From assembly GCF_036346105.1 (NCBI RefSeq), contig NZ_CP107811.1, positions 1,488,001-1,552,000 of the forward strand: 64,000 nt of DNA, written 5' to 3'. The position numbers and the translations under genes were made by a program. The notes beneath the pieces were generated by a model. It did not search any database. It was not told where the DNA came from and saw only the letters and a program-made list of their open reading frames with translations. The DNA is from Streptomyces sp. NBC_00539. Lineage in GTDB: Bacteria; Actinomycetota; Actinomycetes; Streptomycetales; Streptomycetaceae. This document shows positions 5,898 to 52,579 of this stretch, in pieces. Positions within the stretch are counted from its first letter, which is position 1. Every line of letters begins with the position of its first letter.

Positions 5898-7526
<1,629 letters not shown>

Positions 7527-20488: not shown

Positions 20489-21322
20489 ATGGGATACACG
20501 GACCAGCGCTTCGATGTGAACCTTTCGATCCTCTTCACGGAACTCCCGCTCCTGGAGCGTCCCGCGGCTGCCGCCGCGGCGGGCTTCACGGCGGTCGAGC
20601 TGTGGTGGCCCTGGATCGAGACCCCCACTCCCGCCCAGGCGGAGCTCGACGCCCTCAAGAAGGCTCTTGAGGACGCGGGCACCCAGCTGGTGGGCCTGAA
20701 CTTCTACGCCGGCCAGTTGCCGGGTCCGGACCGCGGCGCGGTCTCCGTGCCCGGCGAGGAGTCCGACCGCTTCAACGCCAACATCAACGTGGCCGCCGAC
20801 TTCGCGGCCTCGGTCGGCTGCAAGGCACTGAACGCCCTCTACGGCAACCGGGTCGAGGGCGTGGACCCCGCGGTCCAGGACGAGCTGGCGCTCAAGAACC
20901 TCGTCACGGCCGCCAAGGCCGCGGACCGGGTGGGCGCCATCCTGCTGATCGAGACCCTCAACAAGCCCGAGTCGCCGCTCTACCCACTGGTGAGCGCCCC
21001 GGCCGGCATCGCGGTCGTGGACAAGGTCAACGAGGCCACCGGCCTCGGGAACGCCAAGTTCCTGCTCGACCTGTACCACCTGGCGATGAACGACGAGGAC
21101 CTCGGCGAGGTCATCGAAAAGTACGCCGCCAAGACCGGGCACGTCCAGATCGCCGACAAGCCGGGCCGCGGCGCCCCGGGCACCGGCGAGCTGCCCCTCG
21201 AAGAGCTGCTCGACCAGCTCAAGAAGGCCGGGTACGAGGGCTACGTAGGCCTGGAGTACAAGGCCGCGGACGCCGCCGCGTCCTTCGCGTGGCTGCCGGC
21301 CGAGGCCCGCGCCGCCAAGTAG
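20489..21322 (+). CDS. hyi: Hydroxypyruvate isomerase
   Basis: 277 residues from the ATG at 20489. A xylose-isomerase-like TIM barrel of the Hyi family, seen in FTAVELWWPWIE, LVGLNFYAGQLPGPDRG, ILLIETLNKPESPLYPL (metal-binding Glu) and VGLEYKAAD. It interconverts hydroxypyruvate and tartronate semialdehyde in the glycerate pathway from glyoxylate. It is followed after 77 bp, without a terminator, by glxR, so the two form an operon. The longer open frame back to 20303 covers the promoter and is not used. Confidence 0.95.
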   Translation: MGYTDQRFDVNLSILFTELPLLERPAAAAAAGFTAVELWWPWIETPTPAQAELDALKKALEDAGTQLVGLNFYAGQLPGPDRGAVSVPGEESDRFNANINVAADFAASVGCKALNALYGNRVEGVDPAVQDELALKNLVTAAKAADRVGAILLIETLNKPESPLYPLVSAPAGIAVVDKVNEATGLGNAKFLLDLYHLAMNDEDLGEVIEKYAAKTGHVQIADKPGRGAPGTGELPLEELLDQLKKAGYEGYVGLEYKAADAAASFAWLPAEARAAK

Positions 21323-21399
21323 GCGGACGAAGTCCGGGCGATCAGCCAGGCACCTCCCGCACTTTTCGTACGAAGCATTGAAGAGAAGGACCCCCCATC

Positions 21400-22299
21400 A
21401 TGAGCACCTCCACCGCGCTTCCGTCGATCGCCTGGATCGGCCTCGGCATCATGGGCTCGCCCATGTCCGAGAACCTCATCAAGGCCGGATACCCGGTCAC
21501 CGGCTTCACACTGGAGCAGGACAAGCTGGAGCGCCTGGCCGCCGCCGGTGGCACCGCCGCCGGCTCGATCGCCGAGGCCGTCAAGGACGCCGACGTGATC
21601 ATCACGATGGTGCCCGCCTCCCCGCAGGTCGAGGCCATCAACTACGGCCCCGAGGGCATCCTCGCGAACGCCAAGTCCGGTGCGCTGATCATCGACATGT
21701 CGTCGATCACCCCGCAGACCTCGGTCGACCTCGCGAAGAACGCCGCCGAGAAGGGCATCCGCGTCATCGACGCCCCGGTGTCCGGCGGCGAGGCCGGCGC
21801 CATCGAGGCCGTCCTGTCGATCATGGTGGGTGGCGAGCAGGCCGACTTCGACGCGGCCCTGCCGATCCTGGAGACGCTCGGCAAGACCATCGTCCTGTGC
21901 GGCCCGCACGGCTCCGGCCAGACGGTCAAGGCCGCCAACCAGCTCATCGTCGCGGTGAACATCCAGGCGTGCGCCGAGGCCGTCGTCTTCCTCGAGAAGT
22001 CGGGCGTGAACCTCCAGGCCGCCCTGGACGTCCTCAACGGCGGTCTGGCCGGCTCCACGGTCCTGACCCGCAAGAAGGACAACTTCCTCAACCGCGACTT
22101 CAAGCCCGGTTTCCGGATCGACCTGCACCACAAGGACATGGGCATCGTCACCGACGCCGCCCGCAACGTCGGTGCTGCCCTCCCGGTCGGCGCGGTCGTC
22201 GCCCAGCTGGTCGCCTCGCTGCGCGCCCAGGGTGACGGCGGGCTGGACCACTCGGCCCTGCTCCGCGCGGTCGAGCGCCTCTCCGGCGCCCAGGTCTGA
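21400..22299 (+). CDS. glxR: 2-hydroxy-3-oxopropionate (tartronate semialdehyde) reductase
   Basis: 299 residues, a beta-hydroxyacid dehydrogenase. The NAD(P) motif is IGLGIMGSPM, the substrate motif DAPVSGGEAGA, and the catalytic Lys is in GQTVKAANQ. It reduces tartronate semialdehyde from Gcl to glycerate. AAGGA lies about 10 bp before the ATG. Second gene of the hyi-glxR operon, ended by the 13-bp hairpin at 22341-22396. Confidence 0.95.
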   Translation: MSTSTALPSIAWIGLGIMGSPMSENLIKAGYPVTGFTLEQDKLERLAAAGGTAAGSIAEAVKDADVIITMVPASPQVEAINYGPEGILANAKSGALIIDMSSITPQTSVDLAKNAAEKGIRVIDAPVSGGEAGAIEAVLSIMVGGEQADFDAALPILETLGKTIVLCGPHGSGQTVKAANQLIVAVNIQACAEAVVFLEKSGVNLQAALDVLNGGLAGSTVLTRKKDNFLNRDFKPGFRIDLHHKDMGIVTDAARNVGAALPVGAVVAQLVASLRAQGDGGLDHSALLRAVERLSGAQV

Positions 22300-30255: not shown

Positions 30256-31935
30256 TCAGCGGAGGTCGGCCTCGTCGTACTCCGCCGTCGAGCCGGCCTC
30301 GGTGAGCTCCCGCAGCTCCACCCGGCGGATCTTGCCGGACACGGTCTTCGGGAGCGGGCCGAACTCGATCCGGCGGATCCGCTTGTACGGGGACAGCACC
30401 GCCCGGGAGTGCGCGAACAGCACCCGGGCCGTCTCCTCCCCCGGCTCCCAGCCGGCGGCGAGCGTGACGTACGCCTTGGGGACGGCGAGCCGCACCGCGT
30501 CCGGGGCCGGGACGACGGCCGCCTCGGCGACGGCCTCGTGCTCCAGCAGGGCGCTCTCCAGCTCGAACGGGCTGATCTTGTAGTCGGAGGCCTTGAAGAC
30601 GTCGTCCGAGCGGCCCACGTAGGTGAGGTGGCCCTCGGCGTCGCGCGAGGCGATGTCGCCGGTGCGGTAGAGACCGCCCGCCATCGCCTCGGCCGTCCGC
30701 TCGGGGTCGTCGCGGTAGCCCGTCATGACCCCGGCGGGCCGGGTGCGCAGGTCCACGCAGACCTCCCCCTCGTCGGGGGACTCCTTGCCGGTGACCGGGT
30801 CCAGGAGCACGATCTCGTAGCCGGGCGCCGGACGGCCCATCGAGCCGGGCCTGACCGGGGCGCCCGGGAAGTTCCCGATCTGCAGGGTGGTCTCGGTCTG
30901 GCCGAATCCGTCGCGGACGGTCACGCCCCAGGCCTGGCGGACCTTCTCGATGACCTCCGGGTTCAGCGGCTCTCCGGCGGCGACGGCCTCGCGCGGCGGG
31001 TTGCGCAGCAGGCCGAGGTCGGACTGGATCAGCATCCGCCACACGGTCGGCGGGGCGCAGAAGGTGGTGACGCCGCCGCGGTCCATCTCCGCCATCAGCC
31101 GCTCGGCGTCGAAGCGGGTGTAGTTGTACACGAACACGGTCGCGCCCGCGTTCCAGGGCGTGAAGAGGTTGGACCAGGCGTGCTTGGCCCAGCCGGGCGA
31201 GGCGATGTTGAGGTGGACGTCGTCGGGGCGCAGTCCGACCCAGTACATGGTGGACAGGTGCCCGATCGGGTACGACGCGTGCGTGTGCTCGACCAGCTTG
31301 GGACGGGCGGTGGTGCCGGAGGTGAAGTAGAGCATCAGGGGGTCGTCGGCCAGGGTCTCGCCGTCGGGCGTGAACCCGCTGTCCGCCTGGTACATGTCCT
31401 CCAGGCGGCGCCACCCGGTGGGCACCTCGGGTCCGGCGGCGATACGGGTGTAGGTGCCGGGCACCTCGTCGAACTTGCCGGTGTCCTCGGCGCGCACGAT
31501 GACGTGGCGCACCTGCCCGCGCTCGACGCGGTCGCGCAGGTCTGCCGCGCCGAGCAGCGGGGTGGCGGGGATGACGACCGCGCGCAGTTTCATCGCGGCG
31601 AGCATCACCTCCCACAGCTCGCGCTGGTTGCCGAGCATCAGCAGGATCCGGTCGCCGGCGCCGACGCCCTGGTCGCGCAGCCAGTTCGCGGCCGAGTCCG
31701 AGCGCACGGCCAGCTCCCCGAAGGAGACCCCCCGGCTCGTGCCGTCCTCCTCGACGATCCGCAGGGCGTCGGCGCCGTTCCCGGTGGCGATGTGGTCGAA
31801 CCAGTCCAGGGCCCAGTTGAAGCGCTCGGGGCGGGGCCAGGTGAAGCCGGCCCGGGCGGCTTCGTAGTCCCCGCGGCGGTCGAGCAGGAAGTCGCGGGCG
31901 GCCAGGAACTGTGCGGTGGCGCTGTTCTCCGTCAT
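30256..31935 (-). CDS. AMP-forming acyl-CoA synthetase
   Basis: 559 residues from the ATG at 31933-31935. Adenylate-forming motifs are LMLYFTSGTTARPKLVEH (phosphate loop), GFGQTETT, YRTGD and the C-terminal catalytic Lys in KTVSGKIRRVELR. The sequence is closest to the medium-chain acyl/benzoate-CoA ligase group (ACSM-like). It activates a carboxylic acid as acyl-AMP and transfers it to CoA. No ribosome-binding site is obvious. An in-frame GTG at 31968 is an alternative start. No pathway partner is adjacent. Confidence 0.88.
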   Translation of the reverse strand: MTENSATAQFLAARDFLLDRRGDYEAARAGFTWPRPERFNWALDWFDHIATGNGADALRIVEEDGTSRGVSFGELAVRSDSAANWLRDQGVGAGDRILLMLGNQRELWEVMLAAMKLRAVVIPATPLLGAADLRDRVERGQVRHVIVRAEDTGKFDEVPGTYTRIAAGPEVPTGWRRLEDMYQADSGFTPDGETLADDPLMLYFTSGTTARPKLVEHTHASYPIGHLSTMYWVGLRPDDVHLNIASPGWAKHAWSNLFTPWNAGATVFVYNYTRFDAERLMAEMDRGGVTTFCAPPTVWRMLIQSDLGLLRNPPREAVAAGEPLNPEVIEKVRQAWGVTVRDGFGQTETTLQIGNFPGAPVRPGSMGRPAPGYEIVLLDPVTGKESPDEGEVCVDLRTRPAGVMTGYRDDPERTAEAMAGGLYRTGDIASRDAEGHLTYVGRSDDVFKASDYKISPFELESALLEHEAVAEAAVVPAPDAVRLAVPKAYVTLAAGWEPGEETARVLFAHSRAVLSPYKRIRRIEFGPLPKTVSGKIRRVELRELTEAGSTAEYDEADLR

Positions 31936-31978
31936 GGGGGAATCGTGCCGCGTGGCGCTGTGGATCACTAGGCCGACG

Positions 31979-33103
31979 TCAGCCCCGGATTGACCCGAAG
32001 CGGATGCGGCCGGCTCCGGCGGGGACCTCCTGCGTTCCCGGACCCGTCCCCATCTGCGCGAGGAGCCGCTCCCCCTCGGCGGCGATCTCCTCCTCGGCCG
32101 CCTGCGGCACCGGGTCGAACAGCTCGACGGTGAGCACCCCCGCCTCCGCTGTCCAGAGCCCGGCGAGGAATCCGTCGAGGAGGAGGGTGCGGTGGGCCTG
32201 GTTGCCCGACCAGCTGCGCCCCTTGAGCCGCGGGGGGACGACGCGGGCGCGGTCGGCGTGCGAGAGCAGGAGGTTGTCGAACTCGGGGAGGAAGCGGGGC
32301 GGGGCGGGGGTGTCGGGGGCGGGGCGGGGTGCGTCGGGAAGGTCGAACAGCTCGACGCCGTTCTCGTCCCGGAAGACGACCAGGCGCGGCCGCAACCGCT
32401 CGAAGGCCTCCCGCAGCCGGGTCAGGCCCGCCCAGGTCTGCATGTCGTTCACGGAGGCGGGTCCGAAGGCGCCGAGGTAGCGCAGCACCACGTCGTCCAG
32501 GCGCTGGGGCTCCCCGGCCGGTCGGCCGAGCCAGTGCTCGGCGGTGGTGAGCCGGACCTGGCCGCTGCGGCCCCACACGCCGCGGGGCGTGACCTGTACG
32601 AGCGGGAGCCGGCAGCGGGCGGCCACGGACAGGGCCTGCGGGTCGGCGCCCGGCCAGTGGGTGAGGAGTTCCTCCCGGATCTCCCCCATGGTGCGCGGCT
32701 CGGCTTCCACGAAGTCCCGCGCGGTCCGCGCCAGCCGGTCCAGGTCGACTCCGGTGAGCCCGGCGCGGAAGTTGCCGAGCTCCCGGTCGCGGGCCTCCTG
32801 GACGAGCGGCCGGAGGGTGAGGGCGTCGTGCGCGGTGTGGGTGTGGAGGGTGGAGCGCATGGTGACCATGCGGACCACTTCCCGGGACTCCATCAGTGCG
32901 GCGAGCTCCGCGGGGCGGAAGCCGGCGAGACGGGCGTGCAGCTGGAAGTAGGGCGGCCGGACGTTCTGCGCCTGGAGCCCGACGAGGTGCGAGACGGCGT
33001 CGGCCGCGGGCATCGGCGTGCGGTGCAGCAGCAGCTGGCGCGCGAGCGTGGCACGGCTCAGTGCGCGGGCGCCGAGGACCGGGTGGGTGGTCGATGAGGC
33101 CAT
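31979..33103 (-). CDS. AlkZ-like DNA glycosylase (HTH_42 family)
   Basis: 374 residues, a triple winged-helix protein of the HTH_42/DUF1006 family. The glutamine pair Q44-A-Q46 in HLVGLQAQNVRPPY matches the catalytic QxQ motif of Streptomyces AlkZ, which unhooks interstrand crosslinks (azinomycin); the YcaQ branch has QxD. A conserved VRMVTMRSTLHTHT segment follows. It should act in the cytoplasm on alkylated DNA. It is not next to a recognisable biosynthetic cluster here, so it may be a housekeeping AZL paralogue. Confidence 0.82.
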   Translation of the reverse strand: MASSTTHPVLGARALSRATLARQLLLHRTPMPAADAVSHLVGLQAQNVRPPYFQLHARLAGFRPAELAALMESREVVRMVTMRSTLHTHTAHDALTLRPLVQEARDRELGNFRAGLTGVDLDRLARTARDFVEAEPRTMGEIREELLTHWPGADPQALSVAARCRLPLVQVTPRGVWGRSGQVRLTTAEHWLGRPAGEPQRLDDVVLRYLGAFGPASVNDMQTWAGLTRLREAFERLRPRLVVFRDENGVELFDLPDAPRPAPDTPAPPRFLPEFDNLLLSHADRARVVPPRLKGRSWSGNQAHRTLLLDGFLAGLWTAEAGVLTVELFDPVPQAAEEEIAAEGERLLAQMGTGPGTQEVPAGAGRIRFGSIRG

Positions 33104-33122
33104 GACCGCACGCTAACGCGGC

Positions 33123-33145
33123 TCGCGGACACCCTCTGTCCGCGA
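33123..33145. promoter_or_regulatory. Hairpin in the alkZ-like/corA divergent promoter region
   Basis: Perfect 9-bp inverted repeat TCGCGGACA (33123-33131) and TGTCCGCGA (33137-33145) with a 5-bp centre, between divergent genes. It could be an operator or a 5'-UTR stem of either gene. It does not resemble an M-box riboswitch. Confidence 0.35.
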
Positions 33146-33225
33146 CTTCCACGGCGTCCACCCCCTTTGCCCGTATATCGTGCTCTTGGCCCATGGAAAA
33201 TCGCTCACCTCGGGAGCTGACTGCG

Positions 33226-34323
33226 ATGCCGGAGCGCCCAGACCGCCGCCCCACGCCGCGCACGGGCCGACCGCGGCCCTCCGCGCCGACGCCGTCGGAC
33301 CACCGCAGCGTGGTCGACTCCGCGGTCTACCGCGACGGCCGCCGCGTGGCCTCCCCCGCCACCCTGGCCGACACCTTCCGGCAACTGCGCGAACAGCCCG
33401 ACGGCATGGCCTGGATCGGCCTGCACCGCCCGACCGAGTCCGAACTCCACTCCCTGGCCGCCGAGTTCAACCTCCACCCGCTGTCCGTCGAGGACGCCCT
33501 GGAGGCCCATCAGCGCCCCAAGCTGGAACGTTACGGCGACACCCTCTTCGTCGTCCTGCGCGCCGCCCGTTACCTGGACGCGCCGGAGGAGGTGGAATTC
33601 GGCGAGCTCCACGTCTTCGTCGGCCAGGACTTCCTCATCACGGTCCGCCACGGCGCGGCCCCCGACCTGTCCGCGGTCCGCCGCCGCATGGAGGCCGCCC
33701 CGGAACTGCTCTCCCTGGGCCCCGAGGCCGCCCTCTACGCCATCCTCGACGCGGTGGTCGACGGCTACGCCCCGGTGGTGGCCGGAGTCCAGAACGACAT
33801 CGACGAGATCGAGACCGAGGTCTTCCGCGGCGACCCCGAAGTCTCCCGCCGCATCTACGAACTCTCCCGCGAGATGGTCGAGTTCCAGCGCGCCACCCGC
33901 CCGCTGGTCGGCATGCTCCACGGCCTGATGGCCGGCTTCGCCAAGTACGGCACGGACGAGGAACTCCAGCGCTACCTCCGCGACGTCGCCGACCACGTCA
34001 CCCACACCAGCGAACGCGTGGACGGCTTCCGCCAGGCCCTGACCGAGATCCTGACGGTCAACGCCACCCTGGTCTCCCAGCAACAGAACGCGGAAATGCG
34101 CGCCCTGGCCGAAGCCGGCTTCGAACAGAACGAGGAGATCAAGAAGATCTCCGCCTGGGCCGCCATCCTCTTCGCCCCCACCCTGGTCGGCACCATCTAC
34201 GGCATGAACTTCGAGACCATGCCGGAGCTCCACTGGGCGGCGGGCTACCCCTTCGCCCTCCTGCTGATGGCAGTCGTCTGCGTCAGCCTCTACGTCATCT
34301 TCAAGAAGCGCGACTGGCTGTAA
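33226..34323 (+). CDS. corA: CorA-family magnesium/divalent cation transporter
   Basis: 365 residues from the ATG at 33226 (CGGGAG 9 bp upstream); an in-frame ATG at 33193 has no site. A large cytoplasmic alpha/beta N-domain is followed by a long helix (around VDGFRQALTEILTVNATLVS) and two C-terminal membrane helices. The signature YGMN is in TLVGTIYGMNFETMPEL, and the protein ends with the usual basic tail KKRDWL. The last 143 bp of the gene (34181-34323) are duplicated at 39060-39202. Confidence 0.95.
   Translation: MPERPDRRPTPRTGRPRPSAPTPSDHRSVVDSAVYRDGRRVASPATLADTFRQLREQPDGMAWIGLHRPTESELHSLAAEFNLHPLSVEDALEAHQRPKLERYGDTLFVVLRAARYLDAPEEVEFGELHVFVGQDFLITVRHGAAPDLSAVRRRMEAAPELLSLGPEAALYAILDAVVDGYAPVVAGVQNDIDEIETEVFRGDPEVSRRIYELSREMVEFQRATRPLVGMLHGLMAGFAKYGTDEELQRYLRDVADHVTHTSERVDGFRQALTEILTVNATLVSQQQNAEMRALAEAGFEQNEEIKKISAWAAILFAPTLVGTIYGMNFETMPELHWAAGYPFALLLMAVVCVSLYVIFKKRDWL
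34181..34323 (+). repeat. Left copy of the duplicated corA 3' end
   Basis: 143 bp ending at the corA stop codon match 39060-39202 base for base without gaps except 7 substitutions by my hand alignment (136/143). The two copies are direct repeats bounding the cargo segment 34324-39059. Confidence 0.95.
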
Positions 34324-34696
34324 CGACCCACCTCACGCGCTTGATCGACTGAGCGCAAGCGAACCCCTTCGCGAGGGGGCTTCCACACCTCGTCGTGGCA
34401 GATGTCGGCGCGGATGGCGTTGCCGTTGGTCCTGGTCAGGGCCAGCGAAAAGGATCGCTTCTGCCGACCTGGTTCCGGACCACCCCACGGCAGCTCAACT
34501 TCGGCATTCCCGAGGCGGTCGGGGACGGCGGAGTGACCCTCCACCCCGACGACGTGGACGGCTGGGTGCAGGCGATCGAGTCGGCCGACCGGACCGGCCT
34601 CGGCGCGAGGGCCCGTGCCGGGGCAGCGCCGCTGGTCCGGCCGTGCCTGCCCGAGCTGGCTGCCGCCGGGCTCATCCCGACGGCAGCACCCGCCGC
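34324..34696 (+). other. Segment after corA with a weak ORF
   Basis: A short frame at 34395-34700 encodes LNFGIPEAVGDGGVTLHPDD and onward, resembling the C-terminal donor-site segment of GT4 glycosyltransferases (the EAVGDGG-x-L-x-P-D-D pattern). There is no start site or N-terminal domain. If real, it is a gene remnant; I see no other gene here. Confidence 0.3.
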
Positions 34697-34813
34697 CTAG
34701 CGGGCCGCGTAGGCGGCCTGGACCTCGTCGGAGCGGTCGGTCCACCAGTTCAGCAGAGCCTCGTCCGTCAGGAACATCTCGCCGAAGGTGGGGTCCTCAC
34801 GGTCGAGGTAGAA
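34697..34813 (-). pseudogene. 3' extension of the phosphotransferase gene beyond an in-frame TAG
   Basis: Reading on in the frame of the kinase gene at 34814-35728, past its TAG, gives 38 sensible codons (FYLDREDPTFGEMFLTDE and on to EVQAAYAAR) and then a second TAG at 34697-34699. The extension looks like the family's normal C-terminus, so the first TAG is probably a nonsense mutation (for example CAG to TAG). Confidence 0.65.
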
Positions 34814-35728
34814 CTACAGCTGCCAGAAGTCGGTCAGCCGCTTCCACCACAGGCGCTTCACCGCGTCGGCGAGGTCGCCCTCGGGCAGATCGATCACGGA
34901 CCGGTATCCGGAGCAGAACGCGGCAACGCGGTCGAGGTCGAAGGCACCACCGACCCCGAACTGCACCTGCGCGGTCCGCGCGACCTCCTCCCCGTACGAA
35001 CGGACACCGAGCCGGTCCCAGTCCAGGACCGCCACCACCCGGCCATCGCGGCGCAGCAGGTTGCGGTACTGGAAGTCGCCGTGCGTCCACCCGTACGGCC
35101 CGGCCGGCACCTCGCCGTCCGGCCGGGCACCGGCGTACCGCGCGAGGAGGCGGCGCCGGTCGTGTAGGGCCTCGGCGGCGGCCTTGTCGAAGTCCGTCAC
35201 CGGAGCGGACGGCAAGCGGCTCAGTAGGGCAGCAGCCGCACGGTCGGCCTCGGTCACATCGCGGACCTTGGCCACCGGCGCCTGCTCGGGGACCGGGCCG
35301 GGACCATGCCGCCGCAAACCCTCGTGGAGGCGGCCCAGCAGAGCACCGAGATCGCGCACCTGGTCGAGCGGGAGATCCGTCCCTTGGAGGTGCTCGCCGT
35401 CCACCCACGGCAGGACGCAGTAGCCGTGACCACCGACTTCCGCCACGAGGTCACCGTTGGCCGCGCTCAGCGGCGCCGGCACGGGGATGCCCTCGCGAGC
35501 CAGGTCCACGAGGACCGCAAGGTTCCTGCGGACCTTTGGTAGGGGAACGTCGGCGATCTCCTTGAGCGCGTACACCCCGGTAGCCGTCACGAGCCGCCAG
35601 TTCCGGTTCATCAGGCCGTGGGCAAGGAAACGCCGATCACTTACCGCGCCCAGCCCGAACGCGTCGGACAGGCCAGGCAGTACTGCCGTCAGAGCATCTT
35701 CTCGAGTCGTATCCGTCACCCCCAGCAC
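34814..35728 (-). CDS. Aminoglycoside phosphotransferase-family kinase, prematurely stopped
   Basis: 304 residues of an APH/choline-kinase fold. The catalytic loop THGDFQYRNLL (His-Gly-Asp-x5-Asn) and the metal-binding Asp in AVLDWDRLG are intact. The N-lobe has YALKEI with the ATP-binding Lys. It phosphorylates a small hydroxyl or amine substrate that cannot be predicted. The frame stops at a TAG (34814-34816) directly followed by 38 in-frame codons, so the protein lacks its natural C-terminal helix region unless the TAG is read through. Start codon uncertain: two GTGs (35728 or 35719 region), neither with a good site. Lies inside the corA-bounded segment. Confidence 0.75.
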   Translation of the reverse strand: MLGVTDTTREDALTAVLPGLSDAFGLGAVSDRRFLAHGLMNRNWRLVTATGVYALKEIADVPLPKVRRNLAVLVDLAREGIPVPAPLSAANGDLVAEVGGHGYCVLPWVDGEHLQGTDLPLDQVRDLGALLGRLHEGLRRHGPGPVPEQAPVAKVRDVTEADRAAAALLSRLPSAPVTDFDKAAAEALHDRRRLLARYAGARPDGEVPAGPYGWTHGDFQYRNLLRRDGRVVAVLDWDRLGVRSYGEEVARTAQVQFGVGGAFDLDRVAAFCSGYRSVIDLPEGDLADAVKRLWWKRLTDFWQL

Positions 35729-35914
35729 GGTACGCCGACGCCGAATCGCGCACCCGAATTCGTCACCGGGATCCCCACTGAGAGTCGGAGGGTGAGGCCA
35801 GCCGCGATCGCCACCGGCTCACCCAACTCCGCTCGTGGCGGAGCCGGAACCGTCCCGGCGGCCTCACTACCCTGACCGCCGGACCACCCGCGGCCGTACG
35901 ACGATCGGGAGACC

Positions 35915-36973
35915 ATGACGACGCCCTCCACCGCCCGAATCGAAGACCTCCTGCAGACCGGGGTTCGCGAGGAGGTCTACCCCGGCGCGGTGTGGGCGGT
36001 CGGGGACGCCGACGGCGTCCGCGCGAGCGGAGCCGTCGGCGTCCTCGACCCCGACCAGCCCGACGAACCGATGCGGCTGGACATCGTCTTCGACGTGGCC
36101 AGCCTCACCAAGATCCTCGCCGTCTGGTCCACCATCGGCACGCTCACCGAAGAGGGCAAGCTCGACCTCCACGCCCCTCTGGGCACCTTCTGGGACCAGG
36201 TCGCCGGCCACGCCCTGGCCCGGGCCACGGCCCACCACCTCCTGACCCACACCGCGGGCCTGCCCCTACGCGCCAACCTGAAGAACCTTTACGGCACCGA
36301 CCCCCAGGACATCCGTGACGGCGTCCTCCACGAGACCCTCCACCGCCCACCGGGCGAGGCCGTCGAGTACACCGACCGGGCCGCCCTCGTCCTCGGCTAC
36401 CTCGCCGAGCACCTGTCGGGCCAGCCCCTGGACCGGCTCGCCACCGACCGCGTCTGGGACCCCCTGGGCATGACCCGCACCCGCTTCGGCCCCCTCCCCA
36501 CCACCGAAGCTGCCCGCTGCGCCCCCACCGAGTACGACGACACCACCGGCACCCACCTCAAGGGCACCGCCCACGACTTCTCCGCCCGCCTCTTGGGCGG
36601 CGTCTGCGGCATCGCCGGCACCTTCTCCGTCCTCGACGACCTCGCCCTCTTCCTCCGCCACATGCTCGCCCCCACCCAGGCAGCCTTCGGCCCCACCTGG
36701 ATCAAGGACTCCCTCCGCATCCACACCGGCGCCCTCACCCCCGCCCGCGGCCTCTTCTGGCACCCCGCCCCCGGCACCGACCCCGCCGAGGACGTCTGGG
36801 TCCACTACGGCTTCACCGGCACGGGCATGTGGATCAGCCCCATCCAGGGGCGCTGGGCCGTCCTCCTCACGAACAAACTCCGCTTCAACCGCGACCGCGA
36901 ACCCCTGACGGAGATCCGCAACGCCTACCGTCTCAGCGCATTCCCGGTGAATGTTCCGAGGATCCAAGCCTGA
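35915..36973 (+). CDS. Class C beta-lactamase-like serine hydrolase
   Basis: 352 residues with the SxxK nucleophile motif Ser63-Leu-Thr-Lys66 (FDVASLTKILAV), the second motif YTD (VEYTDRAALVLGYL) replacing YxN, and HYGFTGTG in the place of the KTG/HxG motif. No signal peptide is visible, so it is probably cytoplasmic and more likely an esterase or D-aminopeptidase relative than a true beta-lactamase. It lies in the corA-bounded segment, in convergent orientation to nothing recognisable. Confidence 0.85.
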   Translation: MTTPSTARIEDLLQTGVREEVYPGAVWAVGDADGVRASGAVGVLDPDQPDEPMRLDIVFDVASLTKILAVWSTIGTLTEEGKLDLHAPLGTFWDQVAGHALARATAHHLLTHTAGLPLRANLKNLYGTDPQDIRDGVLHETLHRPPGEAVEYTDRAALVLGYLAEHLSGQPLDRLATDRVWDPLGMTRTRFGPLPTTEAARCAPTEYDDTTGTHLKGTAHDFSARLLGGVCGIAGTFSVLDDLALFLRHMLAPTQAAFGPTWIKDSLRIHTGALTPARGLFWHPAPGTDPAEDVWVHYGFTGTGMWISPIQGRWAVLLTNKLRFNRDREPLTEIRNAYRLSAFPVNVPRIQA

Positions 36974-37162
36974 CTGCAGCTGCGTCCGCGTGGTGGCTTA
37001 CGCAGGCGTCAACTCCCTGAGTGCCCTTTGTAGCGCGTCGCTCATGTTGCATTGGCTCGAATTGTCACGTCACGGCAGCGGTGCGGCGGCCGCCACCCCG
37101 ACCAGGTCCGGGAGCGCGACCCTGCGGGGTTACCGAATGAACGCTGAGCAAGTTGTCCGGAG

Positions 37163-37642
37163 GTGGAAACAAGAGGCAGTCGTAGGGGCGTGCCAGCGCC
37201 GCGGGACGCCAACGTCCGGAAGGTGATGACCGCCCAACGCAACCGGGACACTGCGCCAGAGCTGGCGCTGCGCCGCGCCCTTCACGCGTTGGGCTTCCGT
37301 TACCGCGTGGACTTGCCGATCCCAGGAATGCGGCGTCGGCGCGCTGACGTCACCTTCACACGCTGGCGGACGGCGGTGTTCGTCCAAGGGTGCTTCTGGC
37401 ACGCCTGCCCGACACATCAGCACGCTCCGAAGCACAACTCCGAGTGGTGGCGCAGGAAGTTCGACACCAACGTTCACCGGGACGAGGAGACCGATGCGCA
37501 CCTCGCGCTCCTGGGCTGGCTACCACTCCGCATCTGGGAGCACGAAAGCGTGGACGGTGCTGTTCGGCGCGTGACGGCGGCCCTCGCCACCCGGGGTCAT
37601 CCCCTGGCCCTGCGGCTGGACGCCCGGGACGTCGACACGTGA
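37163..37642 (+). CDS. vsr: Very short patch repair (Vsr-type) endonuclease
   Basis: 159 residues. Vsr hallmarks are QRNRDTAPELALRRALHALG, catalytic Asp62 in RRRADVTF, GCFWHACP with His80, and EWWRRKFDTNVHRDEETD. Vsr nicks 5' of the T in T:G mismatches that arise from deamination of 5-methylcytosine. The family normally accompanies a cytosine-5 methyltransferase (Dcm-like), but none is seen here. The N-terminus is uncertain: GTG at 37163 is taken because PRDANVRKVM before the core is typical of the family. An ATG at 37226 would remove it. Base composition of this part looks lower in GC than the chromosome around it. Confidence 0.88.
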   Translation: METRGSRRGVPAPRDANVRKVMTAQRNRDTAPELALRRALHALGFRYRVDLPIPGMRRRRADVTFTRWRTAVFVQGCFWHACPTHQHAPKHNSEWWRRKFDTNVHRDEETDAHLALLGWLPLRIWEHESVDGAVRRVTAALATRGHPLALRLDARDVDT

Positions 37643-37690
37643 CGTCAGGCCGGAACAGCACCGCCACGTACGACGGCGTCATCGCCCTGA

Positions 37691-38839
37691 CTAGGACGGT
37701 ACGGCTCCCGCTGAAGCACCCGGTTCGTCTGCCGCTGACGGGTGCACGTACCTGCCCTCATTGAACGGGGTGAACCAAGCATCGAACGACATGGGCACCA
37801 CCCCCAGGGTGGAGCCGACCACGCTCTCATCGATGCCGTCCATCGAATCGTCGTACAGCCACTCGTGGTCCATGTCCTCGTACACGCTGTCGGCGAAGGT
37901 CGCGAGGGCAGCCGAAACGCCCTCTTCGAGGAGTCCGAACAGATCGAGGTTCGCATTCGCCTGACGCAGCAGCAGTCTCAGGGCCAGCTCTTCGGCGATG
38001 CAGCTCAGCTGGCCGAAGTTCCCCGCCGTGAACCGGGTGGTCATGGCGATCACTGTTACCAGGAAGCGGCGGGCGAATCGGGTGTCGTACTGCAGGGCGT
38101 ACCTCTCTGGCAGGTCCTCCAGGTGCCACAGGGAGCCGTCGCACTCTCCGACTGTGCTCTCCTCCCCTTCCAGGGTGTGCACGTCATCGAACAACTCGTC
38201 GATCAGGACATCGATGGCGTAGACCAGGGCGCCGGCAGCCAAGCGAGCGTCCTCGGGCGATACGACGGAGTCCCAATCGTTGCCGTCCTCGCCCTCGAGG
38301 TCATCGGGTCCACCAAACATGACGGGCGGGAAGGAACGCAGCTCGTCTGCCAATACGAGCATCCGGGCACGCACTTCCTCGGCCTTCGACTGAGCGTCGT
38401 ATTCGCTTCCCTCGACAGCCGGGGGTGGTTCGGAATGACGTGCTTTCCGGGCCGCGGGATCGTCTGGCGGAACGTCGGGGCCGTCAGCCCCAGTGAGGCT
38501 CTCCTGGGCGAGCTCCGGATGCAGGTCGACCTCGCACCGTTTCACCTCCCAGTCCGCGAGCAGTTCGGACCGCATCAGCACCTCGCCCACCACTTCCCGG
38601 ACCACGTCCTCCGCGAACTCGAGCGCCTCGGCGTCGACGAACACCTTGAGCACTGCCCCGCTCGGGTGTACGGCAACGATCGTGTCGAGGAGGTCCACCT
38701 CCATGCCGTCTGGTCCCTCGATGCCGTCGATCGAAGCTAAGCCGTTCTCGATCAGCGCCACGGCTCCGGCACGCTGCAGCGGATCCATCGCCGACGCGCC
38801 TTCCGGGCTACAGATGTCTGCCGTCACTACGTACGTCAC
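37691..38839 (-). CDS. Acidic conserved protein of unknown function
   Basis: 382 residues from a GTG at 38837-38839. The N-terminal ~115 residues (MTYVVTADICSPEG, LIENGLASIDGIEGPDGMEV, WEVKRCEVDLHPELAQESL) form a module I recall from other Streptomyces proteins of unknown role. A variable charged linker and a helical C-terminal half rich in Asp/Glu follow (DELFDDVHTLEGEEST). No membrane segment, signal peptide or catalytic motif is seen. Convergent with vsr, gap 48 bp. Part of the corA-bounded segment. Confidence 0.65.
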   Translation of the reverse strand: MTYVVTADICSPEGASAMDPLQRAGAVALIENGLASIDGIEGPDGMEVDLLDTIVAVHPSGAVLKVFVDAEALEFAEDVVREVVGEVLMRSELLADWEVKRCEVDLHPELAQESLTGADGPDVPPDDPAARKARHSEPPPAVEGSEYDAQSKAEEVRARMLVLADELRSFPPVMFGGPDDLEGEDGNDWDSVVSPEDARLAAGALVYAIDVLIDELFDDVHTLEGEESTVGECDGSLWHLEDLPERYALQYDTRFARRFLVTVIAMTTRFTAGNFGQLSCIAEELALRLLLRQANANLDLFGLLEEGVSAALATFADSVYEDMDHEWLYDDSMDGIDESVVGSTLGVVPMSFDAWFTPFNEGRYVHPSAADEPGASAGAVPS

Positions 38840-39059
38840 GCCTCCGAGCCTGGCAGACGGAACTGAGGTACGGGGCCAGAACCGGCTCGATCGTGGACCC
38901 TCGCTTCGGCCAGAATCTCCCGTCGCACACCGCCAGCACCCTAGACATCATCGGCCCTCAGCACCGAAGGGGGTTCCCGGACCTCCAATTTGTTCGAGCG
39001 GTGGTGACCATGCATCGCGTCAAGCGCCTACTTATCGCTCCCCTGGACCCACACCCTTG

Positions 39060-39202
39060 CCCTGGTCGGCACCATCTACGGCATGAACTTCGAGACCATG
39101 CCGGAGCTCAAGTGGACGGCGGGCTACCCCTTCGCCCTCCTCCTGATGGCAGTCGTCTGCGTCAGCCTCTACGTCATCTTCAAGAAGCGAGACTGGATGT
39201 AG
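39060..39202 (+). pseudogene. Right copy of the corA 3' end (truncated corA fragment)
   Basis: Encodes only the last 47 residues of a CorA protein, including TIYGMNFETMPEL, both partial membrane segments and KKRDWM, then TAG. The 5' part of the gene is absent. It matches 34181-34323 at 136/143 positions without gaps. Homology starts abruptly at CCCTGGTCGG. Confidence 0.95.
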
Positions 39203-39256
39203 GAGTCAGCCGACTCCTCACGCACCAACGGGAGGGGCACCGGCAGCGGTAGCCCG

Positions 39257-39380
39257 TCAGGCATGCACAAGGCCATCCGCCATCACCAGCCGAACGCGGC
39301 GCAGCGCCTGGAGATCGCTCAGGGGATCACCCTCGACGACCAGGAGGTCCGCGCGGAGGCCGGGAGCAGGCGCCCCGCTC
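39257..39380 (-). pseudogene. Amidohydrolase C-terminal remnant
   Basis: On the minus strand the sequence encodes APGLRADLLVVEGDPLSDLQ followed by RRVRLVMADGLVHA and a stop at 39257-39259. This is the standard C-terminus of metal-dependent amidohydrolases (GxxADLxxxxGDPxxD). Upstream the frame soon loses similarity, and there is no barrel domain. A decayed gene end. Confidence 0.6.
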
Positions 39381-39528
39381 GGTGTGCTCCGGCCGGCGCC
39401 CGCGCGGGCAGCGGGCCGGGCGTCGGACGCGGCGATCAGCTGGACGACCCCGCCCGGCTACGTCCGCGACACCCCTGCTGCCCGCCATGGCGTAGGGCGC
39501 GGCAGAGTCGGGCCGACCGGTGCCCCGC

Positions 39529-39881
39529 ATGGTCACCGTCCTGCACGCCGCCGTCGACCGCCCCGGACGCCACGCCTACCGGCTCGCCTTCGCAGCGGCC
39601 CACATCCATATCGCCGGTCCGCACTACTGCGACATGCTGCGCCGCGCCGGCCTGCGCGTCCACCACGCCGCCCGGGCCTCGGCGCCCGCGCCCTAGTCGA
39701 CTCGGGAGTCTTCCTCTACGGCACGCCCGGGAACGTCGCCGCACAGCCGGCCGAATTCGATCGGGCGGGGGTGGACGAAGTTGTCGTCAACGTCTCGGGA
39801 GTGTATTCCGAGCATAGCCGACCGGACGCGGTACGGGACCTCCAGGAGATCCTCGCGGCCTTCCCGGAGGCGACGAACTGA
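39529..39881 (+). pseudogene. Luciferase-like (LLM class) monooxygenase remnant
   Basis: The 3' part encodes LVDSGVFLYGTPGNVAAQ, then EFDRAGVDEVVVNVSGVYSE and DLQEILAAFPEATN, typical of the C-terminus of F420-dependent LLM enzymes. The preceding stretch (HIHIAGPHYCDMLRRAG) is in another frame, with the switch near 39680, so the gene is frameshifted and lacks most of its N-terminal barrel. Confidence 0.55.
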
Positions 39882-39955
39882 ACCATGAACGGGTACGAGA
39901 GGCAGAGGCATCACCGCGTGCCGCCCTCCCGCACGCGGTGAGGAGAGGCAGGACG

Positions 39956-41197
39956 GTGCCCGACGACATCGCCCGATGGCTGAACGAGCACGCCAACCCG
40001 TTGAGCACCCTGACCCCCGGCGCGCCGGTGGAGGACCTGAAACCCCTGGGCGAGGCACTGCGGGGGACACGGATCGTCGGTCTGGGGGAATCCACCCACG
40101 GCACGGGCGAGTTCTTCCGCCTGAAGCACCGCATCGTGGAGTTCCTGGTCTGTGAGGAGGGGTTCACCACCCTCGCCATGGAGGCCAGCCAGTCCGCCGC
40201 CCGCGCGCTCGACGCGTACGTCCGTTACGGCACGGGCTCCCCCGAACGGCTCGTCACCAGGCTGGGCTTCTGGACCTGGCGCACCCGCGAGATGGTCGAC
40301 CTCGTCGAGTGGCTGCGCGCCCACAACCGCGACCTGCCCGAAGGACGCCGGATCCGCTTCATGGGAACCGACCCCCAGCTCTGCGCCGACTCGGTCGAGG
40401 CCGTCGCCGCCTTTCTGCGCCGGACGGTGCCCGATCAGGCCGGGCGCATGGGCGCCTTGGACGTGCTGGCGCAGGCCCGCCCGGGCTCGCGTCCAGACCC
40501 GGGCAAGGCCCTGTTGCGGCGCGCCGAGGAGATCGCCCGCCTCGTCGCGGACCACGTCGAGCGGTCGGGTCCCGGCGACGACGCCGACGAGGCTCTGGAA
40601 CACGCGCAGATCCTGGTCCGCGCCGCCGACCTGGTGACCCGACCCTTGGGGCCCTCGGCCGGCGAGTACGGCGTGTACGCCGCGCGTGACCGCTACATGG
40701 CCGAGGCCGTCGCACGGCTCGTGGACGACGACCCCCAGGCTCGCGTCATGGTCTGGGCACACAACGGGCACATCGCGAAGGGCACGTACGGGCAACAGGT
40801 GCCTGCCCTCGGCAGCAGACTCCGCGAACGGTACGGCAACGCCTACTACGCGTTGGCCCTCCTCTTCGGCAAGGGCTCCTTCCTGGCCCGCCGCGGCAAC
40901 GACCTCCAGCGCCCACCGGCCCGCCACCGCATCGGCACCGGCCTCCGCTCCCTGGAGGCCAGGCTCACGCACGCCGTACCCGGCGACTACTACGCGGACC
41001 TCCGCGGCGCGGGTTCCCCCGCCGACGCCGCGCCCTGGCTGCACGCCCCGCACGCGCAGCGCAGCTTCGGCGCCAACGTCCAACGGTTCCTCTACCGCTT
41101 GAACACCGCCCCGCTCGTCCCGGCCGAGGACTACGACGGCATCGCGTTCGTGGCACGCTCGACCTGCTCCCACCTGCTGCCCCCGGCGGAGGACTGA
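39956..41197 (+). CDS. Erythromycin esterase-family protein
   Basis: 413 residues from the GTG at 39956, which has AGGAGAGG 7 bp upstream; an earlier GTG at 39938 overlaps that site. The Ere active-site segment IVGLGESTHGTGEFF gives Glu45 and catalytic-base His48. FRLKHRIVEFLV and the downstream VMVWAHNGHIAKG with two His match EreA/EreB/succinoglycan-biosynthesis-related esterases. It would hydrolyse an ester or lactone in the cytoplasm. True macrolide esterase activity is not implied, since most chromosomal family members have unknown substrates. Confidence 0.85.
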   Translation: MPDDIARWLNEHANPLSTLTPGAPVEDLKPLGEALRGTRIVGLGESTHGTGEFFRLKHRIVEFLVCEEGFTTLAMEASQSAARALDAYVRYGTGSPERLVTRLGFWTWRTREMVDLVEWLRAHNRDLPEGRRIRFMGTDPQLCADSVEAVAAFLRRTVPDQAGRMGALDVLAQARPGSRPDPGKALLRRAEEIARLVADHVERSGPGDDADEALEHAQILVRAADLVTRPLGPSAGEYGVYAARDRYMAEAVARLVDDDPQARVMVWAHNGHIAKGTYGQQVPALGSRLRERYGNAYYALALLFGKGSFLARRGNDLQRPPARHRIGTGLRSLEARLTHAVPGDYYADLRGAGSPADAAPWLHAPHAQRSFGANVQRFLYRLNTAPLVPAEDYDGIAFVARSTCSHLLPPAED

Positions 41198-41351
41198 GGT
41201 TCTCTCACGGCACAGGTCGAGCGCGGCGTTCAGAGTGAGCTGCCACATCGGTTCGGCCCCGGTGCCCAATGCCGCAGGGCAGAGCCAGTCCGGCAGCTGT
41301 GCCGGCGCCGGTGCTGGGGTTCAGGGATTGCGGAGCCTCACGGCGCAGAGC

Positions 41352-49288: not shown

Positions 49289-50806
49289 CTATTCGACCTT
49301 CGCCCAGTCCAGCGTGCGTTCCACCGCCTTCTTCCAGCCCGCGTACCCTTCCTGGCGCTGGTCCTCCGACCACTGGGGCTCCCAGCGCTTGGACTCCTGC
49401 CAGTGCGTGCGCAGTTCGTCCGTGTCGCCCCAGAAGCCGGTGGCCAGGCCGGCCGCGTAGGCGGCGCCGAGAGCGGTCGTCTCGGCGACGACCGGGCGGC
49501 TGACGGGGACGCCGAGGACGTCCGCCTGGATCTGCATGCACAGGTCGTTGGCCGTGACGCCGCCGTCCACCTTGAGCACGTCGAGGTGGACCCCGGAGTC
49601 CTGCTCCATGGCCTCGACCACGTCGCGGCTCTGGTAGCAGATGGCTTCGAGGGTGGCCCGGGCCAGATGGCCGCTGTCGTTGTACCGGGCCAGGCCGACG
49701 ATCGCGCCGCGGGCGTCGGAGCGCCAGTACGGGGCGAACAGGCCCGAGAAGGCCGGCACGAAGTACATGCCGCCGTTGTCCTCGACGGTGCGGGCCAGCC
49801 GCTCGCTCTCGGCGGCATCCTTGATGATCTTCATCTGGTCGCGCAGCCACTGCACGGCGGAACCGGTGACCGCGATGGAACCCTCCAGGGCGTAGATCGC
49901 GGGGCTGTCACCGAACTGGTAGGCCACCGTGGTCAGCAGGCCGTGCTGCGAGCGGACCAGTTCCGTACCGGTGTTGAGCACCAGGAAGTTGCCGGTGCCG
50001 TAGGTGTTCTTGGCCTCGCCGGGCGCGTAGCAGACCTGCCCGACCGTCGCCGCCTGCTGGTCGCCAAGGACCCCGGTGATGGGGATCGCGGCGCGCAGGG
50101 GGCGGGAGGTGCGGGTCTCCCCGTAGGCCTCGCGGTGCGAGGAGGGGTTGATCTTGGGCAGCATGGCCCGGGGGACGCCGAAGAAGCCGAGCAGTTCCTC
50201 GTCCCAGTCCAGGGTTTCGAGGTTCATCAGCATCGTGCGGCTGGCGTTGGTGACGTCGGTCGCGTGGATCCCGCCGTCGGGTCCTCCGGTGAGGTTCCAC
50301 AGGACCCAGCAGTCCGTGTTGCCGAAGAGGGCATGGCCCTGCTCGGCCGCCTCGCGCACGCCGTCGACGTTCTCCAGGATCCACTGGATCTTGCCGCCGG
50401 AGAAGTACGTGGCCGGCGGGAGGCCGGCCTTGCGGCGGATGGTGTCGCCCTGACCCGAGCGGTCGAGGGCGGCGGCGATGGAGTCGGTGCGGGTGTCCTG
50501 CCAGACGATGGCGTTGTAGTACGGGCGGCCGTTGCGGGGGTCCCACACCACGGTCGTCTCGCGCTGGTTGGTGATGCCGATCGCCGCGAGGTCGGCGGGG
50601 GTGAGGTTGCCGTGCCGCAAGGCGTTCTGGATCACCGAGTTGGTGCGTTCCCAGATCTCGACGGGGTCGTGTTCGACCCACCCCGACCGCGGGAGGATCT
50701 GGGCGTGTTCCAGTTGGTGCTTCGCCACTTCGTTCCCGGCGTGGTCGAAGATCATGAAACGGGTGCTGGTGGTTCCCTGGTCCACCGCGCCGACGAAGTC
50801 CGCCAT
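49289..50806 (-). CDS. glpK: Glycerol kinase
   Basis: 505 residues from the ATG at 50804-50806, standard for GlpK. FGGY-family hallmarks: [16 protein letters not shown] (phosphate loop), [39 protein letters not shown], and the C-terminal [20 protein letters not shown]. It phosphorylates glycerol to sn-glycerol 3-phosphate. 53 bp downstream of glpF on the same strand; no glpD is seen in the window. Confidence 0.97.
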
Positions 50807-50859
50807 GGGGTGCCGCCTCTCCTGTGGGATGGCCTGCTCGCTGCCCTGGGCAGCCGTGG

Positions 50860-51711
50860 TCACGCCTCCGGTCCCTCCGGGGTCGGCACGCGTCCGGGGG
50901 GCTCCGGCTCGGCGGTCGGCAGGAACCGGCCGATGAAGACCTTGTAGAGGGCCGCTCCGACCAGGCCGCCGATGAACGGACCGATGATCGGGACCCAGAA
51001 GTAGATGTTGCCGTACTGATCTCGCCACGCGTTCCCGTAGCCCGTGATGAAGCTCGCCAGACGGGGCCCGAAGTCGCGGGCGGGGTTGATCGCGTAACCG
51101 GCGTCGGTACCCCAGGCCATGCCGATCGCCACGACGACCAGGCCGATGATGAACGGGGCCAGGTTGGCGCCGGGAGGCGTGCCCAACAGGTCCGTGATGG
51201 CCAGGATCAGGAACAGCAGGATCGCCGTGCCGATGATCTGGTCACGCAGCGCCCCCCATTCCGTCACCGGCAGATTGGGGTTGCCGTTGGCGGGGAGGGT
51301 GGAGAAGACGCCTTGCGTCTTCGTGTGCGTGGGGTCGATCGTCGAGAGCGCCTCGCTGTAGTTCCATCGCACCAGAAGCGCGGCCACGAAGGCGCCGGCC
51401 GTCTGCGCGAGGGCGTACGGGGCGACCTTGCTCCAGGGGAACCCCTTGAACGCCGCGAGCGCCACGGTGACCGCGGGGTTGAGGTGCGCGCCGCTGAGGC
51501 GTGCCGCGACGTAGACACCGAGGGTGACGCCGAGGCCCCATGCCCAGGCGATGCTGTCGTGGTTGCCGAGGCCGCCCGGGGGATCCGTGAGGCCTCCTCC
51601 TGCCACCACCTGGGCCACCACGCCGACCCCGAAAAGGATCAGGATCATGGTGCCCGCGAATTCGGCCGACAGTTCGCCGATCAAACCTGATTTCTTCAGC
51701 CGCTCAGCCAT
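50860..51711 (-). CDS. glpF: Glycerol uptake facilitator (aquaglyceroporin)
   Basis: 283 residues with six membrane helices and both NPA motifs: HLNPAVT and the aquaglyceroporin-type [10 protein letters not shown] with the diagnostic Asp. A long extracellular loop ([18 protein letters not shown]) and Pro-rich C-terminus are typical of GlpF. It admits glycerol for GlpK encoded just downstream. Distinct from the ars-linked MIP at 42314, which lacks the Asp after the second NPA. Confidence 0.96.
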
Positions 51712-51865
51712 CGAAGCCCGCTTCCCGCCGGCCCAGGACCGGCCGTGGACTGCCCGGGTCCCTCCCGCTTCTCACGATAGGACGATCACTCGAGAACCGC
51801 ACGGCGTCCCCGCGGGGGCGGGCGGTGAGCCGGGGCCGACCCGGTCACGACGGGGGCTCCGGCGG

Positions 51866-52303
51866 TCAGCCGACGCCCCAGGACCAGGTGTGGTCGGCGG
51901 CGACGAGGCAGGCGAGGACGACGAGGTCGGCGACCCCGAGGGCGAACCCGAGGCGGGCGCGGCCGGGGCGGCGCGTGCCGCGGCGCAGTGCGAGTACGGC
52001 CAGGACCATGGCGGCCGGGCCGAGGAGGAGGTTCATCGCGAGGAGTCCGACCAGGCCCAGGAGGAAGGAGGCGACGGCCATCCCGTCGGCCTCGCGGCCA
52101 CGGTTGCGGGCCGGCCGGGTGCGGGAGGTGTGCCCGGAGTCGGCGACGCGCCCGGAGTCGGCGGCGCGGTGGGAGTCGGGGGCGCGGCCGGCGCCGTCCG
52201 GGCGGCCGGCCGCGGCCGCGTGGTGGCCGCGGCCGGTCTCGTCGGCGTGGTCGCTGCCGCGGTCGGTGTCGAGGATGCGGTCGAGGGTGCTGCGGACGCT
52301 CAT
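51866..52303 (-). CDS. Small membrane protein with DUF4190-like helices
   Basis: 145 residues. The N-terminal ~75 residues are charged and repetitive, including three hexapeptide repeats of the ADSGR type encoded by an 18-bp tandem repeat. Two or three hydrophobic helices follow (MAVASFLLGLVGLLAMNLLL, AAMVLAVLALRRG), resembling DUF4190 proteins. It is translationally coupled (ATGA) to the upstream 60-residue membrane protein. Function unknown. Confidence 0.65.
   Translation of the reverse strand: MSVRSTLDRILDTDRGSDHADETGRGHHAAAAGRPDGAGRAPDSHRAADSGRVADSGHTSRTRPARNRGREADGMAVASFLLGLVGLLAMNLLLGPAAMVLAVLALRRGTRRPGRARLGFALGVADLVVLACLVAADHTWSWGVG
52130..52183 (-). repeat. 18-bp tandem repeat inside a coding sequence, three copies
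   Basis: GTGCCCGGAGTCGGCGAC at 52130, then related units at 52148 and 52166. In frame on the minus strand they encode the hexapeptides PDSHRA, ADSGRV, ADSGHT-like of the small membrane protein. Confidence 0.7.
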
Positions 52304-52482
52304 GACGAACCTTCCTGTCGTTCGGTCCGGCGGTGGTGACGACCGGAGCGTTCACGGATGGCGAAGACCAGCAGCCAGCAGGCGATCGCGGCCGTGACGG
52401 CGAGGGAGACGGGGGCCGACACGTGTGCCACGGTCCCCAGGAGGACCCCCATCAGCATCAGGGCCGCTACGAGGAAGAGCAT
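52300..52482 (-). CDS. Two-helix small membrane protein
   Basis: 60 residues from the ATG at 52480-52482, which follows a perfect GGAGGGAGC site. Two hydrophobic helices (MLFLVAALMLMGVLLGTVAH and LAVTAAIACWLLVFAI) and a basic tail. Its stop overlaps the next start (ATGA). Divergent from a TetR gene, so the two-gene unit may be its target. Confidence 0.65.
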   Translation of the reverse strand: MLFLVAALMLMGVLLGTVAHVSAPVSLAVTAAIACWLLVFAIRERSGRHHRRTERQEGSS

Positions 52483-52579
52483 CGTGCTCCCTCCGGAAAA
52501 TAGGTGACAGTTGTTCACTGACTACCCAGTCTAATAGCCCTCATGCGATCCCGTGTGGCGGGGGGGTTAACTTTCCGTC

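Follow-up and report, generated by a model that had tools for sequence, protein, structure and literature searches.

A repeated corA 3' end in a Streptomyces chromosome, the probable scar of a decayed integrase-bearing element

The corA locus and the segment between its two tails

The window analysed here is a 64-kb stretch of a Streptomyces-like chromosome (G000:C1:1488001-1552000) in which the 3' end of the magnesium transporter gene corA occurs twice, enclosing what appears to be the remnant of an integrated element. The gene itself (33193-34323, plus strand) is intact and encodes 376 aa (PF01544, E 6e-62). Its last 143 nt (34181-34323) recur on the same strand at 39060-39202, without gaps and with 7 mismatches, and 34181-34322 is 96% identical to 39060-39201 over 142 gap-free nt. 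An earlier note on this DNA had reported this 143-bp gap-free direct repeat with its 7 mismatches and, between the copies, a kinase gene with a nonsense codon, a serine hydrolase, a Vsr endonuclease and an acidic protein, with no integrase visible; alignment and profile searches confirmed all of this except the last statement, as a relic of an integrase is present. When the corA end was searched against its own genome, the displaced tail (E 9e-61) ranked second only to corA, and the remaining three matches were only 71-75% identical. Because of this rank, and because 12 other genomes show the same arrangement, the repeat is not a chance resemblance.

The 42 nt after the corA stop codon (34324-34365, plus strand) resemble the left end of an element from which the arm repeats beyond have been deleted. 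Compared in register, they share 35 of 42 positions with the left end of locus L141 (Streptomyces sp. Isolate_45), a value that none of 20000 shuffles reached (maximum 25); the next best place in the window scored 28/42. Other left ends of the same length class gave 32 (L142 and L138), 31 (L037), 26 (L065) and, for the other 12, 7-23, while 18 ends of a longer class and 21 loci without a recognised arm pair gave at most 20. A hidden Markov model (HMM) of the 88-nt left-end class, which was set apart only after the data had been seen, matched 34333-34375 (E 0.004; next match, E 1.6), and a model pooling two end classes gave no significant match in the window. On the minus strand, 34371-34502 holds a relic, about 42 aa long, of a tyrosine integrase gene, 64% identical by tblastn to integrase aa 232-273 (34502-34377, E 3e-12); its DNA is 75% identical to positions 5910-6043 of the corA region of Streptomyces sp. 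AP-93 (G316; E 2e-19).

An open frame at 34503-34700, between the integrase relic and the kinase gene, presumably resembles a glycosyltransferase C-terminus and had no family match in profile searches. The kinase-fold gene (APH; 34697-35728, minus strand; PF01636, E 3e-27) is interrupted by a TAG codon at 34814-34816, past which 38 in-frame codons run to the next stop at 34697-34699. Three apparent cargo genes follow, for a serine hydrolase of beta-lactamase fold (35796-36973, plus strand; PF00144), a Vsr-type endonuclease (37151-37642, plus strand; PF03852, with TIGR00632 above cut-off) and an acidic protein that matched nothing in Pfam, PADLOC or NCBIfam (37691-38839, minus strand). A composition check suggested in the earlier note bore fruit: the vsr-acidic segment has a GC content of 65.7%, versus 72.6% for the window, and only 3 of 620 overlapping windows, its own included, are as low. 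Two candidate readings were rejected, that of a defence system (among five window proteins, PADLOC matched Vsr only) and that of a tRNA-linked island (the window contains no tRNA or tmRNA). Between the acidic gene and the displaced tail, 38868-39059 would be the eroded right end of the element, having lost its arm repeats, its core and 42 nt from the start of the displaced tail; the counterpart in AP-93 is intact at about 33760-33963. Beyond the tail lie its flank with a C-terminal amidohydrolase fragment (39203-39377, minus strand; residues 361-395 at 94%) and then, at 39377-41277 on the plus strand, a fragment of an LLM-type oxidoreductase gene and an erythromycin-esterase-family gene (PF05139), probably the remnant of the next element of an array.

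Comparison with AP-93 by blastn yielded five DNA blocks in one order and orientation, at 75-94% identity. Besides the integrase block given above, these cover the serine hydrolase (35796-36947 against 20544-21695, 87%), vsr with the acidic gene (37151-38867 against 31866-33606, 79%), the corA tail with the amidohydrolase end (39060-39377 against 33964-34279, 92%) and the LLM-type and esterase genes (39377-41277 against 50583-52484, 94%). In AP-93 the integrase, serine hydrolase and vsr-acidic blocks lie inside an element of ~30 kb with an integrase and a relaxase, and the LLM and esterase block lies inside the second element of a tandem array. To judge from this collinearity, the window appears to be a deletion-compressed version of such an array, in which 4.7 kb answer to about 30 kb of AP-93 and 2.2 kb to about 18.5 kb; a deletion junction lies at 39377. 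At that junction the amidohydrolase end is fused to the middle of the LLM-type gene, the matching AP-93 blocks being ~16 kb apart.

Element boundaries and mobility genes in other Streptomyces

We searched a 203-nt corA end against 150 related genomes and found matches in 59 of them at a threshold of E 1e-25. Apart from the genome of the window, 12 have a second, truncated corA end that lies 3-57 kb downstream of the gene in the same orientation (G039, G071, G083, G074, G006, G085, G079, G048, G032, G007, G054 and G068). With G046 and G012 added, 16 truncated copies from 14 genomes were used to define the boundary. The first base of thirteen of them lies no more than 1 nt from corA nt 947 (window 34139), and the other three begin at nt 935-940. 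From the alignment of full and truncated copies, the start common to most displaced tails gives an attachment core, TCAAGAAGATCTCC, whose left copy in the window is at 34139-34152 (plus strand). With the boundary of the window's corA taken from these relatives, the 5' part of the gene would belong to the host, and the last ~61 codons would have been supplied by the element.

Upstream of most displaced tails there is a conserved element end unrelated to corA, in which TGGGGAGAAT-type repeats are followed by two GCAGGTCAG-type repeats ~30 nt apart, GACRACT and then the core; no recognisable arm repeats were found at L035 and L043. Many left ends carry a TGGGGAGAAT pair, CTGGGGAGAATCTGGGGAGAAT, mostly 70/81 or 78/89 nt past the corA stop. 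In this architecture, the repeats on either side of the core resemble the arm-type sites for a tyrosine integrase. A strict right-end pattern, composed after the tails had been seen, occurred at 49 sites in 39 of 393 Streptomyces genomes, and at 45 of these sites separate corA searches also placed a corA tail; a reversed-pattern control returned none. Cargo like that of the window also occurs elsewhere: the AP-93 element and the corA island of G221 both contain a serine-hydrolase homologue, as does the G046 contig that carries the integrase. In G015 and G025 a left arm follows corA, and a 48% identical acidic-protein gene lies 38-45 kb downstream in the orientation seen in the window; this gene was matched in 14 of the 150 genomes, its own included.

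The islands can stand in tandem. In AP-93 the order is corA, arm, integrase gene, intervening genes, arm, right end and tail, after which two more right-end/tail units follow 19.5 and 7.5 kb on, making three displaced tails in total. In G068 and G046, too, a tail is immediately followed by a new left arm. In two genomes the distance from full corA to a displaced tail is 172 kb (G152:C1:6707617-6880039) and 105 kb (G349:C1:2876637-2981913), indicating that islands or arrays at corA can be very large. At the other extreme, L046 (G007, 2.9 kb) and L039 (G074, 4.4 kb) have both element ends and no integrase match, and may be non-autonomous cassettes.

The G068 element encodes a 361-aa tyrosine integrase (PF00589, E 2.5e-14) with the 3' end of its gene facing the corA stop, followed by an excisionase-like HTH_17 protein, a relaxase (PF03432, E 3e-10) and a mobilization protein whose NikA-like match is below the curated cut-off. 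A survey of this integrase in 296 genomes of the genus, from which 30 loci were taken with short flanks, placed corA within the flank at seven loci, and these were the seven most query-like integrases (83.9-99.7% identity). Two of the next four (82-83%; G316 and G337) are in corA islands as well, 1.6 and 4.6 kb from corA. An integrase near corA keeps one orientation. Across a collection of named genomes, corA or a corA tail was found at 28 of 37 integrase loci; among those without it (L143, L144, L146, L150, L151, L155, L159, L160 and L162), some are on short contigs or have distant integrases. One of these, L155 (Streptomyces sp. CB02923), has a 66% identical integrase and arm-like repeats beside sequence other than corA, which suggests that its target has changed.

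Integrative and mobilizable elements (IMEs) carry an integrase and a relaxase and are moved by the conjugation machinery of another element. The gene order integrase, HTH_17, rep-like, MobC-like and relaxase is common to six elements (G068, G316 at L145, G337 at L147, G046 at L146, L148 and L149), most other integrase loci being covered with a 6-kb flank only. Because of this order, IME appears to be the best description of the family, on the strength of its predicted integrase, MobC-like and relaxase genes, with the actinomycete integrative and conjugative element (AICE) as the other candidate class. A serine recombinase was considered and rejected: among the PF00239 matches in the 15 genomes searched, a single one was found near a displaced tail (G012:C1:6257469, 10 kb from the tail at 6267998), and none at the other islands.

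Origin of the window's repeat

We conclude that the repeat in the window is very probably the scar of a decayed tyrosine-integrase element from a corA-targeting, IME-like family, shaped by later deletions and with a second element probably beyond it. The attachment site of the element (attP) would have recombined with the core inside corA (attB, codons about 316-320) through the action of its own integrase. The element would have brought a functional corA 3' end, so that corA stayed intact, and the original tail of the host would have been shifted to the far end. A second element of the same kind probably joined the first by tandem accretion. Later deletions would then have stripped away the genes for transfer and most of the integrase, together with the left arm repeats and the entire right end, presumably ending mobility and leaving a cargo of serine hydrolase, vsr and acidic protein flanked by corA tails. 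The segment has the marks of a genomic island, namely patchy presence, direct-repeat flanks, relics of mobility genes and deviant composition.

Several observations weigh against this reading. The integrase relic amounts to only 42 aa, and left ends vary, with 5 of the 17 of the same length class matching the window at 26/42 or better and one at 7. A right-end HMM found no right end at 38868-39059, no arm repeats were found in the window, and the window fails the strict right-end (attR) pattern because its right end is gone. Four of the 49 sites with that pattern had no corA-tail match at E 1e-12 (G364:C7, G334:C31, G313:C1:8921550 and G429:C11), and two right-end/tail units of G012 (L053 and L054) are over 1 Mb away from what seems to be its full-length corA, which may reflect rearrangement or another site. 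The window gave no relaxase-module match. What it has of an IME is the integrase at one end, as a relic. At its flanks the tail repeat is present, and the right-end core and arm repeats are missing. Unlike an IME it lacks both a relaxase and a right end, and since it has no relaxase genes we regard the window copy as a remnant rather than a functional IME. For the kinase segment (34503-35795), blastn found nothing corresponding in the AP-93 stretch, and the relatives of the kinase, present in 53 of the 150 genomes (its own included), are at best 58% identical over most of the length or 81% over part, suggesting a separate acquisition or a cargo variant.

The earlier note had called for a comparison with empty sites. 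No genome was found to have the right flank of the window directly after a full corA, so that there is no perfect empty-site pair. Nor are the 19 single-copy corA loci used as controls (L063 being set aside as a likely paralogue) all empty sites, since five of them (L057, L065, L066, L072 and L074) have at least one left-arm repeat and L061 has an integrase relic. Between the two tails of the window there are 7 differences in 143 positions, and the full tail is just as close to that of G039 (135/142); the tails alone thus do not show which is foreign. Gene conversion between the two tails of the window was unsupported for the same reason. At the protein level there is little difference, full tails departing from the full-tail consensus by 5.2 aa and displaced tails by 6.0, and the GMNF motif is kept in all 52 full and all 24 displaced tails. 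Single-base indels occurred in 2 of 28 displaced tails versus 0 of 57 full tails, which is weak evidence as regards constraint on the tail protein. Among displaced tails, L040 and L053 carry such indels, as expected if translation has ceased.

The earlier note had left the choice between a small island and recombination of diverged corA alleles. Homologous recombination or segmental duplication between such alleles or paralogues, enclosing unrelated genes, could account for a 95% identical repeat in a genome that has other corA-like loci, but those loci match at just 71-75%. The displaced tails of relatives have near-constant breakpoints, and next to most of them is a conserved, arm-bearing end that is not corA sequence, which leaves allele recombination unsupported; in addition, the window has relics of an integrase and a left end at the expected place. 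We consider it exceedingly unlikely. The other half of that choice, an island whose arrival restored the gene while displacing the old end to the far side, stood up, although not as a natively small one, since the segment corresponds to about 30 kb in AP-93. A relative with the same genes, in the same order and with both tail copies, had been named as speaking against an island; AP-93 is literally such a relative, yet it supports one, because both copies there are the ends of an element bearing an integrase and a relaxase.

The two-ended small islands L039 and L046, which have no integrase match, raise the possibility that the window instead holds a small cassette that never had an integrase and was mobilised in trans by that of a relative, rather than a deleted IME. 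We give this very little credence, as the window keeps an integrase relic and its blocks are collinear with the ~30-kb element, the missing segments lying between them. A prophage remnant is similarly improbable: related tyrosine integrases occur in 1094 phage records, all at <60% identity, but a relaxase and a MobC-like protein are encoded by six members of the family, and no capsid or terminase gene was seen on reading the list of open reading frames of G068, no phage library having been searched. The decayed IME-like element thus remains our preferred explanation.

The corA family among known elements

It is possible, and we suggest this only tentatively, that corA-specific IMEs form an undescribed family for which corA is a recurrent Streptomyces hotspot, whose members swap the last ~61 CorA codons including the GMN motif, stack in tandem and give rise to integrase-less, two-ended derivatives that may be moved in trans as cargo cassettes. 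What began as an odd repeat can now be described as an integration site that has a core, arms, an integrase and tandem arrays, and a new vector for chromosomal integration might be built from the integrase and its corA target. Repeated replacement of the tail of a magnesium transporter is a natural experiment on how an element preserves the function of the gene it invades, and comparing a single site across the genus can reveal the parents of integrase-poor cargo islands.

In a literature search that covered mainly titles and the starts of abstracts, with subscription papers and supplements outside its scope, no paper was found naming corA as an integration site in Streptomyces. The string "cora" is absent from the main text of PMC9513070 and of PMC3218068, the latter treating AICE integration sites in actinobacteria; "magnesium" is also absent from the main text of PMC9513070, and the sole "cora" in PMC12884075 is the name of a town.

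Phage 21 and e14 cross over well inside icd of Escherichia coli and supply its last codons. The corA family resembles them in supplying a gene end and differs in that they are phage-derived, with another host and target. In the decay of AICEs in a Streptomyces population, a partial integrase, cargo and two direct repeats are left, as in the window, and several elements have accreted at one site; unlike corA, the sites there are mostly tRNA genes, with 36 tRNA, 14 protein-coding and 1 intergenic (PMC9513070). PAISt of Streptomyces turgidiscabies is an island with a tyrosine recombinase at the 3' end of bacA, with internal repeats that permit modular excision (PMC4057263). It shares with the corA family the 3' end of a protein gene as target and relatives fixed by erosion of both integrase and recombination sites, and it differs in its 8-bp palindromic site, its target and cargo, its virulence genes and its designation as an integrative conjugative element (PMC4057263). 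Integration at gene 3' ends with restoration of the tail, tandem accretion and decay are already known, with the corA site in Streptomyces not met in the literature searched; set beside these systems, the corA elements are of interest as a family, and the copy in the window is an ordinary decayed example.

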